In this document: positions 3,620 through 24,680 of the stretch, in pieces | Layout: each line of letters begins with the position of its first letter | Position numbering within the stretch: the first letter of the stretch is position 1 | Assembly: GCA_026419785.1 (NCBI GenBank) | Contig: JAODTK010000145.1 | Coordinates: 372,001 to 436,000 of the forward strand | Reading direction: 5' to 3' | Origin: Sclerodactyla briareus | Lineage: Eukaryota > Echinodermata > Holothuroidea > Dendrochirotida > Sclerodactylidae | Length of the DNA: 64,000 nucleotides | The notes under the pieces: generated by a model | The model's database searches: none | What the model saw: only the letters and a program-made list of their open reading frames with translations | What the model was told of the DNA's origin: nothing | Position numbers and translations under genes: made by a program

Positions 3620-4350
3620 ACAGCAAACATTCCGTTGTTCCCTTTGTGCTCCATGCAAGTGATGTTCAAGCAAAAAAATTAGGACATGCCTGCAGGCGGT
3701 AAAACGGCCGACAGTTATCCCCGCAGAAGAAAACAAGCCGTTTGTGGACCTGCGTTTAGCTAGCATGATATTAAAATTATGCCATTTGACCTCCAGTGAC
3801 TCTGAAATGACCTTACCCGTTGTTCAGGTCCAACTGTAGGGCCAACATTCCCAAGTTTTGTTAAAACAAAAACAGCATCGCATGATTTAGGCAAAAATTT
3901 GACCTCTGTTGACCCTGGAAATGGAAATGACCTTCATGTGTTTATGACGAACGACATTCACCATCCACTGTGACCGAGTTGTGTTTCAAAAATCCGACGA
4001 AGTTAGAAAAAAATGCGACCTATGACACACAAAATTTTAACCTCTGTGACCCTTTGAAACTCGACCGTTCCTTGTTATTCGGGACCAACTTCGTCCCCAC
4101 CCACCAAGTTTCGGTGAATCGGAACTAACACTGTATTTTCGTCAGAAAAATACAACAAATTTGACCTACGGTGACTTTGAAATCACCCTTATTTTTTTCA
4201 GCGGACCACTTTTGTCCCCTCCCACAATGTTGTGTAAATTGGATAAACGCAGTATTTCATGTAGAATAGAATCTGCCAAAAATAGACTAGATTTCCTAGG
4301 ACGGGCGTGTGTACCAAGTTTCAGATTATTCGATAAAGCGTAATGGCATA
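3620..4350. repeat. Family B decayed tandem repeat
   Basis: About five diverged units each carry 'aaatttgacctctgtgaccct', then 'accaagtttcgg' and 'cagtatttc'-type segments, at roughly 120-140 bp spacing. A related fragment with the same 'acttcgtgggtgggg' and 'tcgtcccgaaat' words lies in opposite orientation at 53.62-53.81 kb. I see no coding potential. Confidence 0.55.
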
Positions 4351-5380
4351 AGGCACGAGTTTTGATCGCCAGCTACATCCCCAAAACCGTAATATCTCCG
4401 GACACTTCAGTGTGAGGGGATATATAAGAGGAGTTTGGAAAATTCGGATTGGGCAGGGAAAATTTTAACTATCAAGTTTGAACCTGATATGATATTAGAA
4501 GTTTTAATTTTAAGCTGCATGTACCCAGCCAGGATAGATTTATGTCTGCAAAACAATTCTCGTTTGGAGGAAAACTGATAATATTACAGCAGATTTACAG
4601 ATTAGTGTGACCAAAGATTTTTTGGGGGGGGAGAAGGGGGTGGGTACAAGCCACATGAAACTGTCTCAATTCACTGTAATTATGGACATGTTTAGTTTAC
4701 TGCAAAAGTATGGACGCTTCGGTTGAATGGGTAGGTAGGTATTGCGTTATAAGGACCACATCGGCTAAGTACTGGAGGCAAACTGCAAGCATGGCTATAA
4801 CAGAGGTTAATTGCAGGGAATTGAAAACTCTACCTATAAGGCCAGACCTCATTCCAAAAGGATTTTTCCTAATGTGGGAGTTATTGCTTCCAAAGTTAGG
4901 TACATAGGCAAGAAATCAGGGAAGCCCTATTTGCGCATGACGTATCTATCTATACTCTGTTAAACAATTGATTTCAATTGCTACCCCTTGTACCTAACAG
5001 TGTCCGAATTGGATCAGGGTGGAAGTTGGCCACAATGATCATCAAGTGAAAAAGCATCTAGGGTGTTCAGAAATTTGAGGTCCAAGGCCCGGTGTGGGCT
5101 CCAGGGCCCATTCATGTGAAATGATGCCAAATGCTTTTCCTTCTAAAAGTTTTAATACCATTACTGATGTTTGATCGATATGAGGCTCTAGTAGCTTACT
5201 TTTTGGGTGTCAGGATGTTTTGGCTTCACGGTCCAACTGGGCCCCCAGGGCCCATTTGATAAAATTAACACAATGGTACTTGTAATAGCATCTCCTCCAC
5301 AAGCTTCATTGACTTTTTTTTCAATGGTACGGGGGGAGGGGGCGGGGGTACGAGGTACGATCAGCTCCTATGATCACTCA
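4351..5380. other. No assignable gene
   Basis: This is non-coding sequence with no recognised feature. Two diverged copies of a short segment containing 'ccagggcccatt' lie near 5101 and 5236, about 135 bp apart. A short G8 tract lies near 4622. The open frames here are short and show no family resemblance. Confidence 0.45.
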
Positions 5381-5384
5381 GAGG

Positions 5385-5485
5385 ACCAGACAGCCGGTTT
5401 TGAATACTTTCTGCTCAGAGAAGAAACCAAGACGTCCCTCCCAGGATCTGCACCACACAACCACTAGACTACACAAAGCATGTAG
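5385..5485 (-). repeat. tRNA-derived SINE or tRNA pseudogene candidate
   Basis: Read on the minus strand, the segment begins near 5485 with 'tagtctagtggttg', which fits the RNA polymerase III A box TRGYNNAGTGG. About 60 bases later comes 'tattcaaaaccgg', a one- or two-mismatch version of the B box GGTTCRANNCC. The spacing suits a tRNA-like promoter, but no complete cloverleaf can be drawn. A SINE head or a decayed tRNA are both possible. Confidence 0.35.
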
Positions 5486-5499
5486 CCCATTAATGAATA

Positions 5500-6170
5500 T
5501 GGTATAGTCACATGAACCATATTGATTGTTATGTGCCATATGGGACTGTTCTTCTGTATGATTGCATATTATTCACAATTCTTGACAGATTACATGATTC
5601 CTTATCAGGCATTTGGTCTTGTATATTCGACATGGGAGACCATGCATGCGTGACATTTATAAATGTGGTAGGGTATCATGAACGATATTTAATTTGCCAT
5701 ATACAGTTATATTGGAGCGTTATGGGCCGAGTGGCCAAAGCTTTGAGCTTGAAAGTCAGTCATTCACAATAATTTACCAGGGGCGGCAAAAAATGAGAGG
5801 GGACGCGGGGAGTGAGAAAACAAATAGAGGGCGTTGCTAGAAAATGAAAGAGAAAATAGGGAAAAAGAAGAATGAAAATGAAAACATGAAAACTGACGGT
5901 TTTGGTGTATAGAGTAGGGTGAGGCGAACGATACTGCTTTCAATTGGGGGAACTGGACCACCCATCGGGGAGCTCCTGGCCCCCCGTCGCCGGGGAAGCT
6001 GGCCCTCTCCCCTGTAATTGTACAGTGATTAACGTAAACATTTCGTCTTATCAGGCCTCTGGTTTATTTATAAATGGTATGTTACTGAAACTATTCCTTA
6101 TATGTCCCATATGTCTTAGAGTTTGTAGTTATTCACATCATTGACAAGATCAACATACTTTCTCTTCTAT
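5500..6170. repeat. Diverged internal repeat in TOE1 intron
   Basis: Three diverged segments end in 'ttatcaggc' or 'ctatcaggc' (near 5605, 6050 and 6168). Each is followed by a similar 'nttggtc', 'tctggtt' or 'gtcggtc' run. Two are preceded by 'ttcacaattcttgaca' or 'ttcacatcattgaca'. The third copy is the working 3' splice site of the TOE1 zinc-finger exon, so the intron end appears to have been duplicated upstream and then decayed. Confidence 0.35.
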
Positions 6171-8349: not shown

Positions 8350-9990
8350 AATAATAGAATCTAACATTTTGAAAGCAGACAGTTTTACCATTGAGAGGTT
8401 AAATAAACAATTTGAAATCGGGGAAGTTGTAGGTACTGTTGTTGATTAGGATTGTCTGTGGCAGATTTATTGGTCGACAAGAATAGACATAGTGGTCACT
8501 TGTTTGTGCCTCTGTCTGTACATCACATTATTTTGGAACCCTCATGCTACTTGCCCATCAATATAAAAAATTGGAAGCTTGTGTACAAGATACCTTATGA
8601 TTGGGTAATTGCATTCGTGGGCAGTTCAGTGTATACAACAACTATGAAGTGTACAAAAACTGATTAGACTTCGGACCTCTATATGCCAAGTAAGTAGTCT
8701 AATTTGCATTAATTCATGCAATCTTTTGAAGTTAGTTGGATTTTCGTAATATGTGGATATGCTCCGTTTTCATCACAGTACATCCAAGGGAAGTAGGCAG
8801 AGATGGGAACAAGTCGAGGCGGAACACTTGGTTTTTCTTTGCCTGGAAGTGAAAATGTTGGTGACTTGCCCATAGTTGACGACTTGCTCCTATCAAATTT
8901 GTACAGTGACTTGCTTGGAAATTGACTTGAACCATATTTGCATCACTTGAATATCTTATGATGACTTGTTCTCCCTTTCAAAGTCACTACTCTGATTCCC
9001 TGTCCAGTTTGATTAGAATATTATTCTTAACATACTAATAACTACATGATAGCATTCGTGTTCATTTTGGACTCTGAACGTGCACTCAATGTGACCAATT
9101 CGCCCCATTCATGCAAAAATCTTGATTTTCTCACATGGAACTCTGTAGATGTGGTCTATCTTTGGTCTATCTCAGGTGTTGCTTGTTTAAGGTCCAGCAG
9201 CTTGTCAAGCATTTTTCACGATGAAGTAAAATGATAAATATTATGTATGCCTGCCAACAAAATCTTTGATCATACTTCAGTCATTTGAGCTGACGTACAG
9301 CTTCAAATTTGTGTGATCTACATGAAAGTTTGTAGAAGTTGTCTTTTTCCGATCAGGTGGAGGTTGTTATCGTGTCTATTGCAATTGCATTTAGTGTCCT
9401 CGACGTAGGGAGACTAAGCAACGGCCAGGTTCTAGCACTCTGCCCGCCCTGCATGCAATGGCTAGTGGGTGCATATATGGGGCCATCAAGTGGGAAGCTG
9501 AGAGCTAACAGCAATGATCATAGTTGAACAGCAGGAGTAGCGATCAAAAATGTAGCAGTCTGAATTGAATCATCAATCATTCACAGAGGATACAAGCCTT
9601 TTACAAGGGAATAGATATAAATGGCTAAACCTATCAAATTCGTCCCACCACAATACTATAATCTTGCTTTGGCCCATATATTATGCGAAATTCCCCACTG
9701 AAACATACACCCATCGAATGAAACCAAACTATCCGTCATTAAAAACAAATGAGCAGTAGAGGTTGAGAGGCAAATCAACTCTCACGGTTAGCGGGCAGTT
9801 TGCCGAGTAACAGGAATAGGGTTAGTTCCGTGCAGTCGCCATGTTTGATTTCCAGTCGCCACAGTCCTTCTGCACTGGAAGCCGCAGAACCAACGCACAC
9901 GTGTTGGCGGTGGGTAGTTTCCACTGTCATGGAGGAATTCCACTGCATGCAAATAGTGGAATCCAAGGGGCGGCACTTCGCCAAGGACAG
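8350..9990. other. No assignable gene
   Basis: I see no recognisable gene, RNA or well-formed repeat. The segment separates the convergent 3' ends of TOE1 (plus strand) and the minus-strand multi-exon locus that ends near 10.0 kb. Two overlapping minus-strand open frames at 9775-10003 continue past the proposed stop and are probably untranslated. Confidence 0.4.
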
Positions 9991-10324: not shown

Positions 10325-10581
10325 GGTCATGGATGAAGATATGCCTCCTGCATTAGAGGCATTTAAGGAGTCTTCCGTCCAAATCCTAATATGGTTCAGT
10401 TCGTCTTTGACGTATAGGAGGACACTGCAGTCAGCCATTGTCACAAGTTCCTTCGCCTTCTTCTTCAATGTTTTGATCCTCATGTTTTTGGTTGTTAATC
10501 TCAGTTCCTATCCTCGACGAACCATGTGTAATCTTGTCTTGATGATGGGCATTTTTCGATGAATATACTCAAGGCATAATT
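10325..10581 (-). CDS. Unknown minus-strand gene, exon with MADS/GAF-like stretch
   Basis: The exon begins after the acceptor 'cttgtacgcag' in phase 0: NYALSIFIEKCPSSRQDYTW, then FVED. A single missing base near 10498 (one G in 'gataggaac' would do) links this to TTKNMRIKTLKKKAKELVTM and ADCSVLLYVKDELNHIRIW. With that base the exon is 258 nt, phase 0 at both ends, and its weak donor (ACC/gtggca) leads into the phase-0 exon at 10263. The KT-x3-KKA-x-EL-x6-DC-x-VLL run superficially resembles both a MADS box and the start of a GAF domain. I cannot confirm either, and the fit is too short to name a family. Confidence 0.6.
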
Positions 10582-13070: not shown

Positions 13071-13443
13071 CTCTGTGCCGTTTGTCTGGAACATGTTGCG
13101 AGCACCATGAACATAGCCATTACTTCTCTCGCCTGCCTCCTCTCCAGGGCTTTTATAACAAATGCCGCATGATTCAAGACTGTCCACTGCTTGGTCTGGG
13201 CGGCTTTTCTGAGGGCGTCTCTGTCCGTTGGGGCCAGTTGTAACTGCTCCTTGGCAATCCATTCTGCCGAAGCCTGTTGTGTCCAAGCTGGTGGCCCCCC
13301 TCTTCCTCTCTGGTGAGGTTGATGAATACCTCCTCCAGGCTCCTCATCCTCAGTTATGTATGGTATGTATTCATTATCTTGGTTATGTCTGACCATTTTG
13401 GGGGCTTGTTTCCTAAGAAAATCCCCGGGGTGAGCAGCCCTCT
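13071..13443 (-). CDS. Unknown minus-strand gene, 373-nt exon
   Basis: This is the longest clean exon of the locus: acceptor 'cattttgagaactg...gattcag', donor CAGAG/gtgacc, with 123 open codons between two-base overhangs. It starts RAAHPGDFLRKQAPKMVRHN, passes through an acidic, glycine- and histidine-rich linker (ITEDEEPGGGIHQPHQRGRG), and ends in a predicted helical part, DRDALRKAAQTKQWTVLNHA and AFVIKALERRQAREVMAMF. The flanking phases agree on both sides. I do not recognise it. Confidence 0.65.
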
Positions 13444-13515
13444 CTGAATCGGACACAAATGACAGTTCTCAAAATGAACAATTCACTCTGACCAGAGGCG
13501 GCAGACGGCACTGAC

Positions 13516-13714
13516 CTGTTGCCCGTGTTCCAAGGTCATCGTGCCCTTCCTGAGGGCTATGCACGTGAAATTCACAGAGAATATAGCCAATCGGTTTCTC
13601 TTTTGGGGATCAGCATTGACGAGTCCGTGCGGGCAGGGAAGGATGTGGGGGGTGTTGGAAAAGTCCTGAAGTTGCCGCCCGTCTTCCGCCTCTCATTGTG
13701 TGAGTGATATCTGA
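13516..13714 (-). CDS. Unknown minus-strand gene, exon next to the module array
   Basis: The acceptor is 'tagtaatatctgaacag' and the donor CAACAG/gtcagt. It reads RYHSHNERRKTGGNFRTFPT, PPTSFPARTDSSMLIPKRET and DW. After a one-base break near 13585 it reads YILCEFHVHSPQEGHDDLGT and RAT. The final frame leaves one base, which with the next exon's AG makes a codon, so the join is in phase. It is the first unique exon after the repeated cassettes. Confidence 0.5.
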
Positions 13715-14020
13715 CTGTTCAGATATTACTAGCAAATAACGAGATAGCAGGTTGTTTTTACGATCGATTCAATTACTTTCTATAACAGTTGATTAGTTTT
13801 ATTGTAAGAAATCAATGAACAAAGAGAAAGACAGGAAAGGTCCCCTCTTCAACTTCAACACTTCTCACTCTTCCGCCGTCTCGTGGAGGAGAAAAGGAAA
13901 GGAAACGACAGTCACCCTATTGTACAACCTACTCAATGTAAACTTGCAATGACAACATCCACAGAAGACAACAGCTCAGCAGCAGAACCCAATAGATAAA
14001 AAAAATTAACGATTTTGTAC

Positions 14021-14087
14021 TTAGCCAACATTCTTTGCTACCAAACGCGTCAACCCAACGCCTTTCCTCGTACGCCCTCCTGCTTCC
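14021..14087 (-). CDS. Cassette exon B1
   Basis: This is the copy of the 67-nt exon B. The acceptor is a C-rich tract ending 'ccag' and the donor gtacaa. It is the most diverged copy (RRWVDAFGSKECWLS against KRRRVDACEQECWLR in module 3). Confidence 0.45.
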
Positions 14088-14183
14088 CTGGGGGTGGGGG
14101 GGAAATTGAGAAGTAAAATACACTTCGTATCCTGGCTCACCCAAAGCTCAAGTCTAACCTAGAACAAAGAACAATAAACGTAC

Positions 14184-14269
14184 CTTTCCTCGCCACCTTC
14201 CCCGAGCTCCCCCTGCTCGCCAATATCGATCATGCTTCACCCTCCTTGCCTCTCTAAGCCTGGCTTTGG
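14184..14269 (-). CDS. Cassette exon C1
   Basis: This exon lies between the acceptor 'tttggtcacag' and donor gtacgt. The constant 3' half encodes LASRGSSGKVARK and is nearly identical in all four modules. The 5' half varies. The exon carries one base over to exon B. Confidence 0.55.
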
Positions 14270-14410
14270 CTGTGACCAAAAAGCACACCCTTCAGTGCGG
14301 CACATACTCTGAGGAATATCATTGACTGAAGATCGGGTTATTGAAAGGGGGTCCGAAGTATAAGAAACTGTTACAGAGCTGACAATGGCAGTGTTTTTTA
14401 GTCTACTTAC

Positions 14411-14680
14411 CCACTGCTGCAATGAACCCCTCTTCCGCTCGGGTAGAGGAAGGGCCATTGTGGACCCTCCGTAAATGCCGCCCGAGGTCCGCCAGGGCCT
14501 TGCTTCCTGTAGCACTCTGGCAGGACCGGCGGCAGTACCCCCGGTGGGGGGCATCCGATGGCCGCTCAGAGGAGGCGCTTCACCTCCACCCAGCACGCCA
14601 TCTGAGAACCGATGGAAGGTTCGCAAATGACGCCCCAGATCGGTGACGAACTTTCCACGATGGGGGCAGTATCCCCTTAT
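14411..14680 (-). CDS. Cassette exon D1, paired C2H2-type zinc fingers
   Basis: The exon runs from the acceptor 'cttctcattacag' to the donor gtaagt. It opens with YCPHRGKFVTDLGRHLRTFH, a compact C2H2-like finger (C-x2-C-x9-H-x4-H in the better copies; here the second Cys is Arg). A Gly/Pro-rich spacer and a degenerate second unit follow, of the form CxxxC...DLGRHLRRVHN. Fingers of this short type are usually nucleic-acid or protein binding. The frame is broken inside the second finger by missing bases. It matches D2-D4 at most positions. Confidence 0.6.
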
Positions 14681-14689
14681 CTGTAATGA

Positions 14690-15000
14690 GAAGAACTTGT
14701 TTTGTTTGGAAACAAAATTAATTTCTATTAATCTGTATTATTATTTTTTATTATTTTAGTTTTAGGATATTCTCCGTGGCCCATGTAACTGGAATACTGC
14801 AACGTCATGTATGGACACATGGAATGTGGCCCTAGACGATTCGCCATTAAATGTCCCCCACGTGGCTTTTTGTTTGTCAAATTTCCTCCCTCCTTTGTAC
14901 AAGTTCCCAAACACCCAAGTCATATCCTCGATGATCACCACTGGCAGGGCCTGAATTACCGTCATTAAAAAGTCATTGTGATCCAGAGAACACATTTTAT
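14690..15000 (-). other. Segment E1, possible exon
   Basis: Conserved in every module between D and A/F. In this copy it is open for 77 codons (HNDFLMTVIQALPVVIIEDM, then TWVFGNLYKGGRKFDKQ), but in the other copies all frames meet stops. It may be an exon, or conserved intron between exons. Confidence 0.35.
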
Positions 15001-15064
15001 TCTCTCTGACCAGAATAATGCTCGATAGTCTAGAGCCTCTTCAACCTCCTGGCTCTCTGCATCA
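15000..15064 (-). CDS. Cassette exon A2 (truncated A/F)
   Basis: After the acceptor 'tttttctctccacag' it reads DAESQEVEEALDYRALFWSE, in phase with exon B2. It runs straight into segment E1 because the F half is deleted here. Confidence 0.45.
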
Positions 15065-15202
15065 CTGTGGAGAGAAAAAGAAAAAAAACGTCAGTCACCT
15101 ACTGTACCAATGTATTCAATGTAAAACTCGCAATGACAGACGTTCACAGAAGACCAGCTCACATCAGAACCTCCCCATGGATAAAAAATAATAATGACGT
15201 AC

Positions 15203-15277
15203 CTAGCCAACATCTTTGCTCACAGCGTCGACCACGCCTTTTCTCCTTCTCTCCTCCGCACGCCTTTTCAGTTTCAA
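15203..15277 (-). CDS. Cassette exon B2
   Basis: Acceptor 'tttcacacaag', donor gtacgt. A diverged copy of exon B with an extra 8 nt relative to B3 and B4. Confidence 0.45.
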   Translation of the reverse strand: MKLKRRAEERRRKGVVDAVSKDVG

Positions 15278-15361
15278 CTTGTGTGAAATTGAGAATAAAA
15301 ACAATGCTGTACCTTGATCACACAAAACTCAGCTAACCTAGGAAAAGAAAAATAACATAAC

Positions 15362-15444
15362 CTTTCCTCGCCACCTTCCCCGAGCTCCCCCTGCTCGCCA
15401 ATTCGATCTGCTTCACCCTCCTTGCCTCTCTAAGCCCTGCTTTG
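15362..15444 (-). CDS. Cassette exon C2
   Basis: Acceptor 'tttctgtccacag', donor gttatg. In the phase that chains to exon B it reads KAGLREARRVKQIELASRGS, then SGKVARK: one carried base, 27 codons, one base. A basic, probably disordered linker. Confidence 0.6.
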
Positions 15445-15593
15445 CTGTGGACAGAAAAGAACCCATGTCAGTGGCGCCGTTACTCTGAGGAATATCCAGT
15501 GACTGGAAGATCGGGTTATTGAAATGGGGCCCGAAGTAGGAGAAACGGTTCCAGAGCTGAAAATGGCATTGATTTATTATGACGCTTACTTAC

Positions 15594-15864
15594 CCATTGC
15601 TCCAATGACACCCCCCTCTTCCCTCTTGTAGAGGAGGCATTGTGCACCCTCCGTAAATGCCGCCCGAGGTCCGCCAGGGCCTTGCTACACTGGGGGCTTC
15701 CTGGCAGTACCGGCGGCAGTACCCAACCCCCCCTGTGGGGGGCATCCGACGGACCTCTGAGGCGCTTGTTACAAACCACCACCCTGGCCGCGCCATCTGA
15801 GAAAGTTCGCAATGCCGCCCCAGGTCGGAGACGAACATTCCACAATGTGGCAGTATCCCCTCAG
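15594..15864 (-). CDS. Cassette exon D2, paired C2H2-type zinc fingers
   Basis: The acceptor is 'cttcttattacag' and the donor TGG/gtaagt. The first finger is best seen here: allowing one missing C, it reads YCPHCGMFVSDLGRHLRTF, with the Cys pair and the first His in place. The second finger is also clear, CSKALADLGRHLRRVHN after a CRR-type Cys pair, and a tail GVSLEQW ends at the donor. Zinc ligands C-x2-C and H-x4-H with only nine residues between mark a short C2H2 subtype. Several one-base gaps break the frame between the fingers. Confidence 0.65.
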
Positions 15865-16208
15865 CTGTAATAAGAAGAAATTGTGTTGTTTGGAAACAAC
15901 ATTATTTCTATTAATACTTTTTTTTTTTTTTATTTTGGTTTTAGTATATTCCCCGTTGGCCCATGTAAACTGGAGAATGGCAATGGCAGGTATGGACCAA
16001 ATGGAAGTTGGGCGTAGAACGATTCGCCATTAAATGTCATCAGTGCTGTTTGTTTGTCAAATTGCCGCCTTCGACAAGTTCCACCAAAAATACCCAGGTC
16101 ATATCTTGCTGATCACCACTGCAGGGGCTTGAATACACAGTCATTAAAAAGTCATTGTGATACTAGAACGCATTTATTGAGGTTTTTAAGGGAGTGTCGT
16201 GTAATCAC

Positions 16209-16453
16209 GTTTGAATTTGATTTTCCGAACATGAGGGGAAGGCTGCCAGTTTGTTTTGTTTTTCATTAAGCCAGTGCAAAAAGGCACCAGACCCACATCT
16301 TAGTAATTTGGTTATATATTCTGGTTAGGAGACCATTTCACTTGACCAACAGTGGACCCAGTTACTTTCAACGAAACGGCCAATTCTTCTCTAGACCAAA
16401 ATGAGGCTAGAAGTCTAGAAGCCTCTTCAACACTCCTCACTCTTCTCCCATCT
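16209..16453 (-). CDS. Cassette exon A/F3
   Basis: The acceptor is 'tttttcctctccacag' and the donor CAAAC/gtgatt. The 5' half reads DGRRVRSVEEASRLLASFWS, continuing in phase from exon B3. The 3' half contains, with breaks, an RWVLRAFSHWLKEKQNKLAD-type stretch that is best kept in module 4. That helix-rich part faintly recalls the N-terminal core-binding domain of tyrosine recombinases, but no catalytic Arg-His-Arg-Tyr set is visible. Confidence 0.5.
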
Positions 16454-16597
16454 CTGTGGAGAGGAAAAAGAAAAAAAAACCAGTCACCCTATGGACACGG
16501 ATGCAATGTAAAACTGCAATGAAAAGTTCACAGAAGACAAAGCTCAGCAGCAGAACCCACACAAGCCCATAAAAAACAAAATAATAATGGACATTAC

Positions 16598-16664
16598 CTT
16601 AGCCAACATTCTTGCTCACAAGCGTCGACCCTACGCCTTTTCTCCGCACTCCCTTTCAGTTTCA
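16598..16664 (-). CDS. Cassette exon B3
   Basis: The best copy of exon B: acceptor 'tcattttcccacag', donor CTAAG/gtaatg. It is 67 nt, two bases carried in and two out, reading KLKGSAEKRRRVDACEQECW, then LR. KRRR is a candidate nuclear-localisation signal. Phases agree with C3 and A3. Confidence 0.65.
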
Positions 16665-16750
16665 CTGTGGGAAAATGAGAAGTAAAAAATACGATGCGTA
16701 GCTGGATAATAACAAAAAGCCAAGTTAACTTGAAAAAGAAAAATACAAAC

Positions 16751-16829
16751 CTTTCTCGCCACTTCCCCGAGCTCCCCCTGCTCGCAGTTTGACTGCCCCC
16801 CTCCTTGCCTCTTGGCCCAGGCCTAACAG
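16751..16829 (-). CDS. Cassette exon C3
   Basis: Acceptor 'tttctgtccacag', donor gtttgt. The constant half ASRGSSGKW-type sequence is kept, with a few bases missing relative to C2 and C4. Confidence 0.5.
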
Positions 16830-16981
16830 CTGTGGACAGAAAAAGCACACCAGTCAGGGGCGCACATACTCGGGACATCCTGCGACTGGAAGATTCGGGT
16901 ATGAAAAGGGGACCGAAAAAGGAGAACAACGGCAACGTGTTACAGAGCTGAAAAGCGCCATTGTTTATTGACTCTACTTAC

Positions 16982-17256
16982 CAATGCTCCAATGACACCC
17001 CTCTTCCACGTCAGGGGTAGAGGAAGGCCATTGGGGCACCTCGTAAATGCCGCCGAGGTCCGCCGGCCTTGCTGCACTGGGGCATTCTGGCAGGACCGGC
17101 GCAGTCCAGGTCCCGTTCCAGTTACAGTACCCCCGGTGGGGGGCGGCCCAGACGAACCTCTGAGGGCGTACCACCACCATGGCCGCGCCATCTGAGAAGG
17201 TCGAAATGACGCCCCAGGCGGTGACGAACATTCCACAATGGGGGCAGTATCCCTAG
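16982..17256 (-). CDS. Cassette exon D3, paired C2H2-type zinc fingers
   Basis: Acceptor 'cttctcattacag', donor ATTG/gtaagt. It carries both finger remnants as in D2 ('tgcccccattgtggaatgtt' encodes CPHCGMF), with an inserted Gly/Pro/Val-rich stretch between them and several frame breaks. Confidence 0.55.
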
Positions 17257-17603
17257 CTGTAATGAGAAGAAATTGTGTTGTTTGGAAACAACAAATTTTT
17301 CTATAATATTTGTTTTATACTTTTGTTTTTTTAGGGTTATTCCCCGTGGCCCATGTAAAACTGGATCCTGGCAATGTCAGGTATGGACCACATGAAGTTG
17401 GGGCTTAGACGATTGGCCATTAAATGTCCTCACATGGCTGTTTGTCGTTTGTCAAAATCTCCTCATCGACAAGTTCCCAAAACACCCAAGGTCATATCCT
17501 GATGATCACACTGGGCAGGGTTGAATTACACAGTCATTAAAAAGTCATTGTGATCCGGAGAAACACATTTATTGGGTTTTTTTCAGGAGTGTCCTGTACT
17601 CAC

Positions 17604-17859
17604 GTTTGGATGTTGATCTTCCTAGCATGAGGGGAAGGTCTGCCAGTTTGTTTTGTTTTTCCTTAAGCCAGTGCGAAAAGGCCCGCAGGACCCACCTCTT
17701 AGTAATTTTGTTATATATCTGGTTTAGGAGACCATTTCACTCTGACTAAAACGAAAGGGACCCGTTACTTTCAACGAATGGCCAATTCCCTCTGACCAAA
17801 ATAAGTCTAAAAGTCTAGAATCCTCTTCAAACACTCCTCACTCCTTCTGCATCTCTCTC
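17604..17859 (-). CDS. Cassette exon A/F4
   Basis: The acceptor is 'tctctccaaag' and the donor CAAAC/gtgagt, the strongest donor of this exon type. The 3' part is nearly intact: IYNKITKRWVLRAFSHWLKE, then KQNKLADLPLMLGRSTSK. The 5' part has a frame break. It is probably an alpha-helical domain; the family is not recognised. Confidence 0.55.
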
Positions 17860-17992
17860 CTTTGGAGAGAAAAAAAAAAAAACCCCAGTCCCCAAATTTA
17901 CACATCTTCATGTAACCCGCATGCCAAATGTGCACAGAAGACAACATCTCAGCAGCAGAACCCCATAGTCTAAACAAATAATAATGACGTAC

Positions 17993-18059
17993 CTTAGCCA
18001 CAGCTTTGCTCACAAAGTGTCGACCCTACGCCTTCTCTCCGCACTCCCTTTCAGTTTCA
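17993..18059 (-). CDS. Cassette exon B4
   Basis: 67 nt, the same length and near-identical sequence as B3. Acceptor 'ctcaattttcccacag', donor CTAAG/gtacgt. Confidence 0.6.
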
Positions 18060-18149
18060 CTGTGGGAAAATTGAGAAGTAAAAATAAATGCGTACGTAGC
18101 TGGATCCACAACAAACTCAGTCTAACCTAGAAAAAAGAAAAACACATAC

Positions 18150-18235
18150 TTTCCTCGCCACCTTCCCCGAGCTCCCCCTGCTCGCCAGTTTGAACCTGCT
18201 CCCCCCCTTCCTGCCATCCTTGGCCCCGGCTTTAG
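18150..18235 (-). CDS. Cassette exon C4
   Basis: Acceptor 'tttctgtccacag', donor GGAAA/gtatgt. Open in more than one frame. The constant 3' half matches the other copies. Confidence 0.55.
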
Positions 18236-18387
18236 CTGTGGACAGAAAAAGACACCATTACATGGCGCACCTACTCTGAGGAGTATCCTTGACTGGAAGA
18301 TCTGGTTATTGAAAGGGAACCTACGTGAGAGAAGAAATGGTTACGAAAGGAAGGGCCTAAAATGGCAGTGTTTTTTAGTCTACTTAC

Positions 18388-18681
18388 CCACTGCTGCAAT
18401 GACAACCAAACCCTCTTCCTCCGCTCGGATAGAGTGAAGGGCCCATTGTGGACCCCTCCTTAAATCCGCCTGAGGTCCGCCAGGCCTTGCTGCACTTGAG
18501 GCACGGTGCTGTGGCATGAAGGACATCGGCCAGTACACCCCGTTGTGGGGGGCGCCCGATGGACCTCTAAGGGCGCTTTCACCTCCAACCTGGCAGCGCC
18601 ATCTGAGAACCGATGGAGGTTTTCGCAATGACGCCCCAGATTGGTGACGAACTTTCCACGATGGGGGCAGTTTCTCCTCAG
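18388..18681 (-). CDS. Cassette exon D4, paired C2H2-type zinc fingers
   Basis: Acceptor 'cttctccttacag', donor GTGG/gtaagt. It has the same two-finger layout as D1-D3, with extra bases near the 3' end. The reading 'aactgcccccatcgtgg' keeps CPHRG as in D1, so modules 1 and 4 share the Cys-to-Arg change while 2 and 3 have Cys. Confidence 0.55.
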
Positions 18682-18993
18682 CTGTAAGGAGAAGAAATGT
18701 GTTTGTTTGAAACAAAATTTTTCTATTAATATTATTACTTTTTTTATTATTTTGGTTTTAGGTATTCCCCGTTGGCCAGGTAACTGGATACTGGCAATGT
18801 GTCAGGTATGGACCACAATGGAAGTTGGGCCAGACGATTCGCCATTAAATGTCCTCACGTGGCTGTTTTGTTTGTCATTTCCTCCTTCAACAAGTTCCTA
18901 AAACACCCAAGGTCATATCCTCGATGATCACCACTGAGAGGGCTTGAATTGTGCAATTTTATTGGGGGTTTTCAGGATTTGTTGTGACGCAAC

Positions 18994-19180
18994 GTTTGGA
19001 TTTTCGATCTTCCGGCATGAAGGAAGGGCCTGTGCCGTTTTTGTGTTTCATTAGGCAGTGGCGTAAAAAGGCCCCAGGACCACACCTTTCCGTAATTTTG
19101 TTATATATCCATCGGAGACCAAAGTAAAAGTCTAGAAAGTCTAGAGGCCTCTTCAACACTCCTCAACTCTTCTGCCCTTT
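18994..19180 (-). CDS. Cassette exon A/F5 (partial fifth copy)
   Basis: Acceptor 'ctttttctctccacag', donor CAAAC/gttgcg. It is about 60 nt shorter than A/F3 and A/F4 because a middle block is deleted. It reads LRWIYNKITERCGPGAFLRH with breaks. It is the first copy met in transcript order. Confidence 0.45.
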
Positions 19181-19239
19181 CTGTGGAGAGAAAAAGAAAG
19201 CAAAATCAGTCCCCCTATTGTACAACTGAGGTACGGGTG

Positions 19240-20900
19240 AGCATTGATGAGGGTACTGGCCTACCATAAATGTTCATCCATAAACATATTAAATAAAATA
19301 AAATATGGCAGCTCTGATCATCACATCAGTAATACGAGATGACTGCCGCCTCCTTTGATGATTGGCGGTACATGATGAGCATTGAATGATACTCTGGCCC
19401 ACTATATGCTCAATCATCAATATTGAAATAAAATACATAAAACATGGCAGCTCTTGATCAGCATCAAACATAGAGAAATGACTGCTTCCTTTGCTGATAG
19501 ACGTATATGGATGTCCAGTTTCACCATCGTCATTCCTCTTCATCAGCGATGAGAGAAATGACCTTAGTACATGATGAGCATTGATGAGAGTACTTTGCCC
19601 ACTATAATGTTCAATCTATATTAAATGATAAAACATGGCAGGCTCTGATCATCATCAGCAATAGAGAAATGACTGCCTCCTTTGATGATTGGGATGGTAC
19701 ATGTATGACATTGAAGAGAGTGCTGGCCCACTATAATATGTTCAATCGCATCAATCTTACATAAAATAAAACCTGGCAGCTCTGATCAATCATCAGCAAT
19801 AGAAAATGACTTCCTCCTTTGATGATTGACGGTACATGATGAGCAATTGAGTGAGTGCTGGCCCACTATAATGTTCAATCCTCAATAATTACAATAAAAA
19901 TAAAACATGGCCGCCTCTAATCATCTCAACGCTAGAGAAGATGACCTGCCCTTCCTTTGATGATCGACGGTACATGATGAGCCTTGATGTAGAGTACTGG
20001 CCTAACAAATGTTCATCCATCAATATTCAAAAAATAAAATAAAATTTGCGGCTTCATGACCTCATCAACGATAGAGAAATACTGCCTCCTTTGATGATTG
20101 ACGTACATGAAGATGATTAGTCATGAGAGTAACTGGCCCACTATAATGCTCAATCAGTCACTATTACAAATAAAATAAAATAGGTGGCTCTGATCATCTC
20201 GAACAATAAGAAATTAACTGGGTCCTCCGTTGATGATCGACGGTACATGACTGAGCCTTGATGAGAGTTAGGGCACTGCCCACCATAATGTTCAATATCC
20301 TCAATTTTAAAATTAAATAAAATAAATATTCGGCTCTGATCACATCAGCCGATAGAGAATGACTGCCTCTTTTTGGATGATAGACGTATTTGATGACCAG
20401 TGATTGCAGTACCATACCACTGGCCCTTCCTCTGCCATAGTGATAGAGAAATGACTGCCTCCTTCAAGGATAGCGGTACATGCATGAGCCACCATTGATG
20501 AGAGTCTTGGCTCCACCTAAACGCTCTCAGCTTGCTAGTGCTATCAAAGGGCTTGTTCTGGGAGCACTCAGTGGCCCACTGATTAATGCTCAATCCATCA
20601 ATATTAAATACAATAAAGAATATGGCAGCTCTGATCATCATCAGTGATAGAGGAATGACTGCTTTCCTTTGATCAAATAGACCGTAATGATGTCCAGTGA
20701 TTGAGTACCATACCACCGCCATTTCTCTGTCTCTGTCATCAGTGATAGAGAATGAACTGCCTCCTTAAGAATAAGACGGTACAATGATGAGGCCTTGATG
20801 AAGATATTGCTGTGCTATCAAGGGCTTGTTCTGTGAGGCAGCTAGTGGGCCCACTATAATGCTCAATCCATCAATATTAAAATAAATAGAATATGGCAGC
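19240..20900 (-). repeat. ~130-bp tandem repeat field, lower block
   Basis: About twelve diverged copies have the plus-strand core 'atggcagctctgatcatcat', 'agagaaatgactgcctcctt', 'tgatgattgacggtacatga', 'gagagtactggcccactata'. Unit length is about 125-150 bp with many one-base indels. Minus-strand readings such as ISLSLMMIRAAIF recur but stops are frequent, so I treat it as non-coding satellite-like DNA. Confidence 0.8.
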
Positions 20901-21225
20901 TCTGATCATCATCATGATCGAGGAATACTGCTTTTCTTTTGATAATAGACCGTAATATGTCCAGATCGCCCCATTGGTCCATTCCTCTATCATCAGTGAT
21001 ATAGAATGGGGGGGACTGGGTACATGATGAGGCATTGATGAGAGTACTGGCACTCAGCTCTCAGCTGCTATGCGAGCGTTTGGTCTTTGTTCTTCACTGT
21101 GAGCGCCTCAGTGAGCTAGTTAACCCCAGACAGATTAGGTTTGGATACCATCATTACTCTATCAATGTTATCAAAATTATTACTGGCACCATAACGGGTC
21201 CCTTCAGGGATTGAACTGCTCATAC

Positions 21226-21366
21226 CTTCTCACACAGACATCTAGAATTGGATATGGTCATGTAGAACCGAGAGTTGCTGCTGCTCAAGCCAGACAGCCT
21301 GTTGTTGGCATCCATTATACGCCGGATATAGTAGTCCCTCCACCTGGACAAAATGAAATCCCAAAA
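21226..21366 (-). CDS. Repeated exon G, copy 1
   Basis: Acceptor 'acaaaaaattcag', donor GAGAAG/gtatga. It is homologous to the cleaner copy at 27058-27196, with several frame breaks. In transcript order it follows the SPPEGIHK-type segment. Confidence 0.45.
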
Positions 21367-22464
21367 CTGAATTTTTTGTGAATGCCCTCAGGCGGTGAAA
21401 TATCCTGTCCTTTAGAACCCTCTGTCCCATCTTCGCAGAGGGCTGTAGTGTGTTGGCCCGCCCGCCCCCGTGTGCTCAGGTCTTTTCCACGATGCAATGG
21501 AAAAGTCCCTTCCTCCCTACGCACCCCCAAATGTTGCTGTTGGATATTTGTGTACTTTCTCTGTGACAGGATCCTCTGATCTAGTCCAGGACTATTAAGC
21601 TGGCAAGTTCCCTAAAGTACTGCAATGATCACCCAAAACACCCTTCCTGATACCCATAAGATACGGTCTGTCTTCTTGAGGAGCCCAATTCCTTCTTCTT
21701 CCAGGACGTCCCACAACCACCTCCACCACCTCCCCGTTGGCTTGTAAAAGGTGGAACACACAGACAGAAGGGTTGCTCCTTATTTATAAACTGTGTGCAG
21801 GCCATCGCTCCGAGTAGGGCCCTTTGCCTTCATCATATTAAAATAAATAAATAAAATATGGCAGCTCTGATCATCACACGTAGAGGCATGATGCCTTCTT
21901 TGTGGGATGACTGTATATGATGACGCATGATTGAAGGTAACCATACCACCGCCATTTCTCTGTCATCAGTGATAGAAAAATTAACTTCCCTCTTTTAAGG
22001 ATAGCCGGTACAATGATGCGCCTTGATGAGAGTATTGCTAATGCTATCATGGGGGCTTGTTCTGTGAGGCAGCTCAGTGGCCCACTCTAATGCTCAATCC
22101 ATCAATATAAAATAAATAGAATATGCAGCCTCTGAATCCATCATCAGTGATGGAGGAATGACTGCTTTCTTTCTTTCTTTGGATAAAGACCGTATATGAT
22201 GTCCAGTATCGCCCCATTGTCATTCCTCTATCAATCAGCGATAGGAGAAATGACTGAGGTTACCTGATGATCATTGATGAGAGTACTGGCCCACTATAAC
22301 GCTCTCATCAGCTGCTAGTACTACGGTAGGGCTTGTTCTTCACTGTGAGATCTCATGAGGCGTAGTCACCAGCCCAGATTAGGTTGATACCATCACATAC
22401 TCGATCATTTTATCATAAACTTACTGGGCACCTACGGGTCAGTCAGGGATTTGACTGCTCATAC

Positions 22465-22608
22465 CTTCTCAACAGAATCTAGATTGATATGGTCAGGGTA
22501 GAACCAAGAGTTGCTGCTAAAGAGCCAGACGCCTGTTGTGGGCGACATCCATTATAACGCCTGATATATTAGTCCTCAGCCCGATCCCGGACAAAATGAA
22601 TCACAAAA
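22465..22608 (-). CDS. Repeated exon G, copy 2
   Basis: Acceptor 'caaaaaatttcag', donor GAGAAG/gtatga. The same exon as copies 1 and 3 with separate one-base indels. Confidence 0.45.
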
Positions 22609-22619
22609 CTGAAATTTTT

Positions 22620-23014
22620 TGAATGCTCTCAGGCGGTGAAATCTTGTCCTTAGGAACCCTCATGCCAGGTTGGCGAGGGCTGAGGTTGTTGCCGCCCCCG
22701 TGTGGATCAGGTCTTTCCAACGATGCACTGGACAAGTCCCCTTCCTCCCATACTGCACCCCAAGGTGCTGTTGGATATTTGGGACTTCTCTGTGACAGGA
22801 TCAGCAATCTAAGCCAGGAATTGGACTGCAATTCCCCAAGTAAATCGGGTGCATAGACTACACTCTCCCGATACCCAAGATACGTCTGTCTTCTTTTTGA
22901 GGATCCCCTTCTTCCGGTCCCACAACCAACCTTCCTGGAACACACAGACTCTTGGTTATACACTGTGTGCAGAGCATTCCTCAGAGTTGGCCCATTTGTT
23001 CCCTTTGTCATCAA
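22620..23014 (-). CDS. Open segment H upstream of exon G, copy 2
   Basis: An uninterrupted minus-strand frame of more than 130 codons, TLRNALHTVYNQESVCSRKV and on to GMRVPKDKISPPESIQKIS. The homologous segment at 21.38-21.83 kb keeps similar peptides in the same place (GGGWWRWLW-like, REEGTFPLHRGKDLSTRG) but with breaks. Conservation of both copies supports coding, but the frame in the middle part differs between them. No domain is recognised. Confidence 0.4.
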
Positions 23015-23349
23015 TATTAAAATAAATCAAATATGGCGGCTCTGAATCTATCATCAGCGATAGAGGAATGAACTGCTTCTTTGATGATTGACGGTACATG
23101 ATGAGCAGTGATGAGAGTACTGGCCCAAAAATTTTTCACAATATGGAAATAAAATAGAATATGGCGGCTCTGATCACTTCAGTTCATACCTTTTTTTTGA
23201 CTGCCTCTTTTGATATAGACAGTATTGATGACCATAACCACGCGCCAATTCCTCTATCATCAGCTGATAGAGGAAATGGACTGCCTCTTTAAGGATAGAC
23301 GATCATGATGAGATTCATTGAGAGTACTGGCCCACCAGGCTTGTTCTCC

Positions 23350-24075
23350 CTCAGGTTCGTAGAGTGTCCCAGAAGCATACTGCAGACCTTCTACAATCTT
23401 CTGAAATGTCTTCCTGGTGAGCCTCACTCATTTTCAGTCCCTTTCCTCTCCTGTTGGCTTTATCTGTGATCGCCGTTCACGTCAAAGGCGTTCTCTGTCC
23501 CGATCTCGTCATTACTAGGGTTTCCTTTCCTGACCAGGGGATCGAGATTTAGTTTTTTGACATGCCTTGATGCATGCCCTTGGCGAACCCTCATTGAATT
23601 CCTGCACTCCTAACTTCACCTTCTCCTATTATTGGCCTAGACACGAACAGTTTTTGGGGGATCGCTTCCCCAGATTACTGCATTGACGCTTTTCGTTGGA
23701 CAATTCTTGTTTCTTTGCGCATTAAATTCTTTCAGTACATTCTTCTTTGCGCAACCTGTGGAAGATGGGCAACAATCGTGTGGAGATGTCTGCCGGAAGC
23801 GACTGGTGGGACTTTTGAAGCTGAAGTACTCTGGTTTATTTTCCTTGTCTTCATTGTAGAAGCACGATGAATCTGGACCCTCGGACACGAGCATTGCTTC
23901 AGGTTTTCATCAGTGCTCATGCTATGTGTGAGAATTGCCCAATAGTCTTCCGCCTATCCGCAACGTTGTCCATTATTCACCAGGCATTCATATAGTCGCT
24001 GACCATTTTTTCATGCTAACTTGGGTGAGCTGCCTCTGCCAGAGCTGGACGCTTCTGAGCCCGGTGGCATCGCAA
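23350..24075 (-). CDS. Unknown minus-strand exon with KEN-like motif, frame-broken
   Basis: After the acceptor 'attgaatattcatcacag' it reads VAMPPGSEASSSGRGSSPKL, in phase with the 24159-24362 exon. A break follows, then KMVSDYMNAW and VADRRKTIGQFSH, then an 85-codon open stretch at 23637-23894: EGPDSSCFYNEDKENKPEYF, SFKSPTSRFRQTSPHDCCPS and on. Further protein-like pieces (LDPLVRKGNPSNDEIGTENA, KMSEAHQEDISEDCRRSAV) continue to about 23350 in shifted frames. KEN followed by SP/TP sites is typical of APC/C-regulated mitotic proteins, but that is only a motif-level hint. At least three frame shifts are needed to read it through. Confidence 0.5.
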
Positions 24076-24158
24076 CTGTGATGAATATTCAATCAGTGAA
24101 TATCCTTTTAAACTGATGTGATCGACACTTCTTCCATGGTGATTTCATCTGCACATAC

Positions 24159-24362
24159 CTTTCTTCTCATTCAATCGTGCCACAGTCTCGGTATCTCCAT
24201 CCCTCACACTGTCGTGTATCTCGAGACCATTCCTCTGGATCTCCTGTTCCACAAAATAACTGCACCTGCAGCTTCCATGGAACCTGCCAGAACCGCTATG
24301 GTTGGCATGGCAGTGACTCGCATTTCCCTCAAACTCAGATTCAAATTCTGCGGATTCACCCC
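24159..24362 (-). CDS. Unknown minus-strand exon, weak ankyrin-like end
   Basis: Acceptor 'aaacagtctctag', donor GAAAG/gtatgt. Its 204 nt form two carried bases, 67 open codons and one base. It begins GESAEFESEFEGNASHCHAN, then a Cys/His/Ser/Gly-rich stretch (HSGSGRFHGSCRCSYFVEQE), and ends NGLEIHDSVRDGDTETVARL, NEKK. The last part resembles the first helices of an ankyrin repeat (LHDAVRNGDLETV-type). The opposite strand is also open, so the call rests on splice sites and phase. Confidence 0.5.
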
Positions 24363-24506
24363 CTAGAGACTGTTTGGCCTGGGCACACTCATTGCATAAT
24401 TACGCCATACAAACATAATCTAAAAAATCATACCTGTCCAATAAGTTCAACAACTAAATAGGCACCATGATGTGATAAGTGTGCCCTCATTTCTGCCATG
24501 TACCCG

Positions 24507-24680
24507 TCATATGTCACATGCGCCTGTCATCACTTCCTGGTCTTTCAGTTCCGTATTTATAGCCTCATACGCTGCTCTCACTTTTACCTTTGCATCACCT
24601 GGTATGTTCCTCAATTTTATCATCAGAGAGGTTTGCAAATGTGCGCATGTTTCGCATATGTATTGTTGCTCATACCATGA
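24507..24680 (-). CDS. Unknown minus-strand exon with CETC motif
   Basis: After a good acceptor ('tctgtcttctttcaatag') the phase-0 frame is open for 57 codons: SWYEQQYICETCAHLQTSLM, IKLRNIPGDAKVKVRAAYEA, then INTELKDQEVMTGACDI and TGA. CxxC could be a zinc-ligand pair. An alternative donor, CAAAG/gtaaaa, would end the exon earlier, after PGDAK. Its place in a gene with the 24159 exon is likely from position and strand, but the phases do not match without an indel. Confidence 0.5.
   Translation of the reverse strand, partial: SWYEQQYICETCAHLQTSLMIKLRNIPGDAKVKVRAAYEAINTELKDQEVMTGACDI

Follow-up and report, generated by a model that had tools for sequence, protein, structure and literature searches.

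A 64,000-nucleotide stretch of the Sclerodactyla briareus genome (the window; positions 372001-436000 of contig C144, in an assembly of 319 Mb in 3171 contigs) carries on its minus strand, at about 13738-19240, a head-to-tail array of about four zinc-finger units with common splice sites, preceded by a truncated lead piece (Table 1). M1 to M4 number the units by rising coordinate, M4 being first in transcription order, and the layout begins with the last part of the B-A intron plus exon A, after which 5' flank, D, C, B and A follow four times. A repeat search of the window found the exon A block (D6) five times and the D2 blocks four times, at spacings of 1184, 1392 and 1425, with D10 and D11 recurring similarly; no further copies outside the array were found in the window at an E value of 1e-5. 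In an alignment with a low gap penalty, 783 of 1705 columns are identical across the four units, and the six unit pairs show ungapped identities of 0.903-0.925 over 1.1-1.5 kb, compared with a 65-base chance match for a shuffled unit (n=1).

The repeat search and the alignment confirm the fourfold head-to-tail exon series that the earlier note on this DNA had described for the minus strand. Its claim of common splice sites also holds, with TTACAG ahead of exon D and GTAAGTA behind it in all four units, and the two short fingers that it saw in each exon D are borne out as C2H2-like motifs. These motifs follow the pattern CX2CX9HX4H, with a spacing shorter than the X12 of classical C2H2 fingers, and exon B is basic. 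Cys/His pairs at finger spacing are present in related copies elsewhere in the genome, namely CPNCGMFVTNLERHLRTFH in L020 and CTQCGKALADLGRHLRRVH in L021, both of the form CX2CX9HX4H. Exon B is followed by a donor of at least 3 bits in three of four units, and exon C, as read, has a weak donor in most of them.

The family occupies at least four loci in the assembly, the array included. Exon D has at least seven genomic matches (four in the array and one each on contigs C2413, C2117 and C1581), the 5' part of a unit matches C144 and the same three contigs, and exons C-B match C144, C2413 and C1581. The copy on C2413, L019, is single and complete, comprising 5' flank, TATA-like box, candidate first exon, D, C, B and A. 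Its positions 4314-5624 are colinear with window 17812-16575 in M3, starting just past the previous exon A and ending where exon B ends, and positions 4324-5621 are likewise colinear with window 16404-15185 in M2, from the 5' flank through exon B. Exon A and the 3' untranslated region (UTR) of L019 (5733-6022) align into the last unit, M1 (window 14009-13738), whereas only one internal exon A was matched by L019, the match breaking off at L019 5893 and window 15038. The BLAST match between M4 and L019 spans only 18934-17970, and that of M1 is likewise shorter; the limits of M4 and M1 rest on a seven-unit alignment of the array units with L019, L020 and L021, not on BLAST. L020 comprises the 5' part and finger 1 only, and L021 is missing the part that runs from intron 1 up to finger 2.

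Because the order from flank to exon A in L019 is colinear with the units, an array unit is, by sequence comparison, a whole gene, with limits set by this single-copy paralogue. Judged against L019, the gene start (TATA-like box and candidate exon, both missing from M1) and the gene end both lie within the repeat unit, and the end of exon A is fused to the 5' flank of the next copy. Internal copies have no 3' UTR like that of L019, whereas the last exon A continues into a 3' UTR homologous to it. One single-copy paralogue thereby suffices to place the start and end of a unit, and an apparent exon series of one long gene can turn out to be small whole genes duplicated in line. A stretch at 13388-13652, together with a 97-base repeat (L019 3791-4277), lies upstream of the gene in L019 and downstream of the array in the window, a swapped flank position hinting at a larger duplicated block.

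A TATA-like box is present in six of the seven aligned units (all but M1), and so in three of four in the array; L019, L020 and L021 read TATATTA at this position. A unit starts about 40-110 bases ahead of the box and ends just beyond the exon A TGA, which stands at the same position in every copy that has it, exon A being read in a presumed frame. An ATG occurs 41-56 bases past the start of the box in five of six boxed units (not in M3), and a candidate exon 1 of 58 bases is open from ATG to donor in M2, M4 and L019. Its donor reads GTGAGT in M3, L019 and L021 and is altered in M2, M4 and L020; in M4, a deletion lies ahead of the box. AATAAA after each exon A was considered as the end of a unit and dropped, the motif being present in L019, L020 and L021 inside candidate intron 1.

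Traces of protein coding are visible outside the array and, in part, within it. In L021, the frame TQCGKALADLGRHLRRVHPGLPLSKRKRVVFRAVAEAGAKEVRRGARSGWPMGSAGKGKKGGTPGRAERIRRVDALRKVDF is open from finger 2 through exon C to exon B over two introns, with phases 1+2 and then 2+1; the earlier note had given these phases for the chain from C to B to A, and they recur here at the D-C and C-B junctions of the present lettering. In the second-finger helix DLGRHLRRVH, a segment picked after the alignment had been viewed and with M1 as the sole array unit used, six of the 30 nucleotide sites vary among M1, L019 and L021, and all six differences are silent (simulated chance 0.00029). M2 also encodes DLGRHLRRVH, with one extra silent difference from M1, and M3 and M4 are frame-broken there. 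By counts only, 93 of 370 ungapped columns vary in exons D, C and B, and 123 of 334 in the D-C, C-B and B-A introns. Because D, C and B of L021 are open across two introns and the six helix differences are all silent, the family appears to code, or to have once coded, for protein.

Table 1. Features of the zinc-finger array in window coordinates
Feature	Position	Strand	Basis or remark
Truncated lead piece (last part of B-A intron with exon A, from a lost upstream copy)	19151..19240	-	alignment
Lead-piece exon A acceptor CTCTCCA	19184-19190	-
Lead-piece TTGAAG	19151-19156	-
Unit M4, first complete copy (from 5' flank to stop of exon A)	17825..19150	-	mainly alignment
Unit M3	16425..17824	-	L019 match and alignment
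Unit M2	15039..16424	-	L019 match and alignment
Unit M1, last copy	13738..15038	-	L019 match (exon A and 3' UTR)
TATATAA of M4	19101..19107	-
TATATAA of M3	17711..17717	-
TATATAA of M2	16312..16318	-
Exon D of M4, two finger motifs	18388..18681	-	TTACAG 18682-18687, GTAAGTA 18381-18387
Exon D of M3	16982..17256	-	TTACAG 17257-17262, GTAAGTA 16975-16981
Exon D of M2	15594..15864	-	TTACAG 15865-15870, GTAAGTA 15587-15593
Exon D of M1	14411..14680	-	TTACAG 14681-14686, GTAAGTA 14404-14410
Exon C of M4 (3' limit approximate)	18151..18235	-	CACAGC acceptor and invariant 23-base block
Exon C equivalents, other units	near 16750-16829, 15361-15444, 14184-14269	-	CACAGC acceptors
Invariant 23-base exon C block	18163, 16763, 15376, 14198	-
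Exon B of M4	17993..18059	-	GGCTA ahead of donor and alignment
Exon B equivalents	near 16598-16664, 15203-15277, 14020-14087	-	limits read from sequence
GGCTA ahead of exon B donor	17995, 16600, 15204, 14022	-
AATAAA past lead exon A, in candidate intron 1 of M4	18958..18963	-
AATAAA equivalents in further units	17568-17573, 16173-16178, 14996-15001	-
AATAAA in 3' UTR of last copy	13798..13803	-	next on strand 8466-8471

Taken together, the comparison makes it likely that about four copies of a small zinc-finger gene, plus a truncated lead piece, stand head to tail in this region, and that they are not a cassette within one gene. The order of a unit would be TATA-like box, candidate first exon, D with its two fingers, C, the basic exon B, and A; we infer promoter use, exon 1 and the frame of exon A. 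An initial junction would have fused the end of exon A with the 5' flank, and the array then most likely grew by unequal crossing-over. Exon order would stay in line across the units because whole genes were duplicated in line. The product may be a small, basic two-finger protein, presumably binding nucleic acid. The single transcript with repeated modules that the earlier note had proposed is not supported, since exon A of internal units is followed by what L019 identifies as the 5' flank, the box (in three of four units) and the candidate exon 1 of the next copy, and exon A has no donor of at least 3 bits common to two units. The exon that had been called A/F would, in its part past exon A, be the 5' region of the next copy. 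The array thus appears to be an ordinary tandem gene duplication of an already known kind, seen through an error-prone assembly.

Several observations weigh against this interpretation. L020 and L021 have a stop within candidate exon 1, M3 has no ATG there, and the exon ranges in length from 56 to 60 bases; both short motifs are frequent in the window, TATATWA occurring 40 times versus 16.8 expected and AATAAA 86 times versus 64. AATAAA after internal exons A is also found in single-copy loci and so is no proof of termination, and a weak GTGAGR site (0.8-1.6 bits) lies inside exon A. The frame is broken in every array unit, exon D of L019 has its finger pieces in three frames with the CPHC frame beginning at a TGA, and in L021 the exon B acceptor reads GCAA, compared with ACAG in L019, and the frame runs into a stop close to where exon B ends. 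In finger 1, the codon for the second Cys is CGT (Arg) in M1 and M4 and TGT in M2 and M3, and nine bases with the last His of this finger are deleted in M2 and M3; finger 2, as read, is one Cys short in both M1 and M2, perhaps through noise. Candidate intron 1 varies at 64 of 255 columns, as little as the exons, which dulls the exon-intron contrast, and no third-position excess exists among the four units (13/65, compared with 33/146 at positions 1 and 2; P 0.72). The Pfam cut-off was not reached either, the best finger match scoring 19.4 bits, compared with a cut-off of 27, for a hand-read composite from D to A; a further search gave a weaker result.

How much of this damage is biological depends on the assembly. 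Indel events per substitution amount to 1.03-1.85 in the six unit pairs with one aligner, whereas simulations with 10-20% substitutions alone gave 0.08-0.36, and those with about 8% substitutions and 10% indels gave 1.13-1.44. Isolated one-base gap columns are mostly private to one unit (64 of 70). Among other repeats of the window, this ratio is 2.15 at 57.8 kb, 1.25 in a 138-base repeat and 0.66 at 59.7 kb, and the repeat at 55.5 kb has two substitutions and one indel, that at 37.1 kb none and two, and that at 46.9 kb no difference. At another locus of the genome (L006, 1338-1735), four pieces of a finger region, which we take to be Snail-like, lie in frames 2, 1, 0 and 1 within about 350 bases, whereas a further locus (L004) has a 200-residue open frame with fingers presumably resembling Scratch. 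With L006 broken, L004 open and the repeats varied, the assembly noise differs from place to place, so that a frame break in any single unit is not to be taken at face value; frame-based gene models are unreliable in this part of the assembly. Residual indel errors are described for long-read assemblies (PMC8812927, PMC12007338), and the indel-rich disagreement and broken frames found here resemble them; the difference is that the noise here is deduced from repeats and a frame-broken Snail-like gene, not from reads.

Changes common to two units are more likely to be real than private ones. Private changes have a transition:transversion ratio of 106:110 in ordinary context and 5:17 in clean context. 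The columns that divide the units two against two (n=34) fall into three splits of 15, 13 and 6, favouring no single grouping, and five of six clean-context two-unit substitutions pair M1 with M4. Finger 1 apparently lacks one zinc ligand in all four array units, whereas L020 keeps CPNCGMFVTNLERHLRTFH; the lesions responsible, each common to two units, seem not to be simple noise. In a different finger array (L009 1577-3222; C198 about 159076-160721), 19.4 copies with a period of 85 bases have an often broken frame. The expected finger period is 84 bases, and either a systematic homopolymer error or decay of the array would account for the difference.

The most serious other account concerns only the present state of the array and is compatible with a whole-gene unit: the copies may form a dead or dying tandem pseudogene cluster, a real possibility to which we give somewhat less than an even chance. 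The loss of a finger 1 ligand through two different shared lesions, the absence of box and exon 1 from M1, the deletion in M4 and the lack of a codon-position signal among the units are all consistent with it. However, many frame breaks can be attributed to sequencing noise, and the D-C, C-B and B-A introns vary more than exons D, C and B do. Noise of this kind could also prompt the view that the array is a misassembly repeating one unit, and the disagreement of shared substitutions on grouping fits with that; but large indels set the units apart (the missing box and exon 1 of M1 alone, the nine-base deletion of M2 and M3), and shared clean-context substitutions mostly pair M1 with M4, leaving misassembly with a very slim likelihood.

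Two further accounts retain a single gene. A multiplied exon cassette read into one messenger, possibly with exon B spliced to the next exon D and exons A and 1 skipped, is unlikely: each unit holds the 5' flank of a single-copy gene, with a box in three of four array units, exon A carries a TGA and no strong common donor, and L019 leaves the phase into exon D unsettled, although the units lie tightly spaced on one strand, internal copies have no L019-like 3' UTR, exon B of L019 stays open up to its donor, in phase 0, and the array consensus of exon D reads in phase 0 from its first base into CPH and finger 2. Co-transcription is nevertheless conceivable, because internal copies have lost their own 3' UTR and run into the next promoter region; that exon B would be spliced to the next exon D, giving a ladder of proteins with two, four, six and eight fingers that would differ in size between individuals according to copy number, is highly doubtful. 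A gene in which one upstream 5' part serves several alternative 3' terminal finger cassettes would explain why each cassette ends in a terminal-type exon and why no 5' exon donor of at least 3 bits is common to all four units. L019, however, has a box and candidate exon 1 directly upstream, the box recurs in three of four array units, and the sequence upstream of the array holds repeats and a Mutator-type transposase, where no search for a shared 5' exon was made; we regard this arrangement as quite improbable.

Tandem arrays of C2H2 zinc-finger genes exist in animals, for example the KRAB zinc-finger clusters. The array of whole gene copies favoured here resembles these in having genes head to tail on one strand, with growth probably by unequal crossing-over, but differs in that the gene is tiny, has only two short motifs (CX2CX9HX4H) in one exon, and has exon A directly abutting the next 5' flank. 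In lola and mod(mdg4), alternative 3' exons carry fingers. The repetition of 3' cassettes that carry fingers and close with a terminal-type exon is reminiscent of these genes, whereas the array units repeat the 5' flank of a single-copy gene and, in three of four, its TATA-like box. If the fusion of the stop exon to the promoter region of the next copy alters expression, the array would neatly illustrate how genes can shed their own 3' ends by tandem duplication.

Profile and sequence searches gave little beyond this. The D-to-A composite had no match in NCBIfam and only weak matches among PDB sequences (best E value 0.0048, to CTCF), and six open reading frames of L019 had no Pfam match above the cut-off. 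Exact scans with 24 bases from the invariant exon C block gave no match in viral or genome contig collections, from which relatives of the window's genome may have been excluded. Few of the 272 six-frame pieces of at least 62 residues lying outside the 9.3-25.6 kb minus strand were searched, none scoring above the cut-off, and Rfam and tRNA scans of the window returned nothing.

At about 10360-10552 on the minus strand lies a piece resembling an SRF/MADS-type domain, below the cut-off: PF00319 gave an E value of 9e-4 plainly and 4.4e-5 by read-through (23.3 bits, compared with a cut-off of 26), and serum response factor was matched in PDB sequences at an E value of 0.029. Tandem repeats of 138 bases adjoin the array at about 19238-20404, and a direct duplication of 1.3 kb lies nearby at 20596-21923 and 21831-23104, with 74.5% identity and 101 gap openings. 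A frame-broken Mutator-like transposase is located upstream of the array at about 23800-24650 on the minus strand; a hand read-through matches PF20700 (E value 3.2e-18, 66.3 bits, compared with a cut-off of 26.5), whereas its separate pieces were unmatched.

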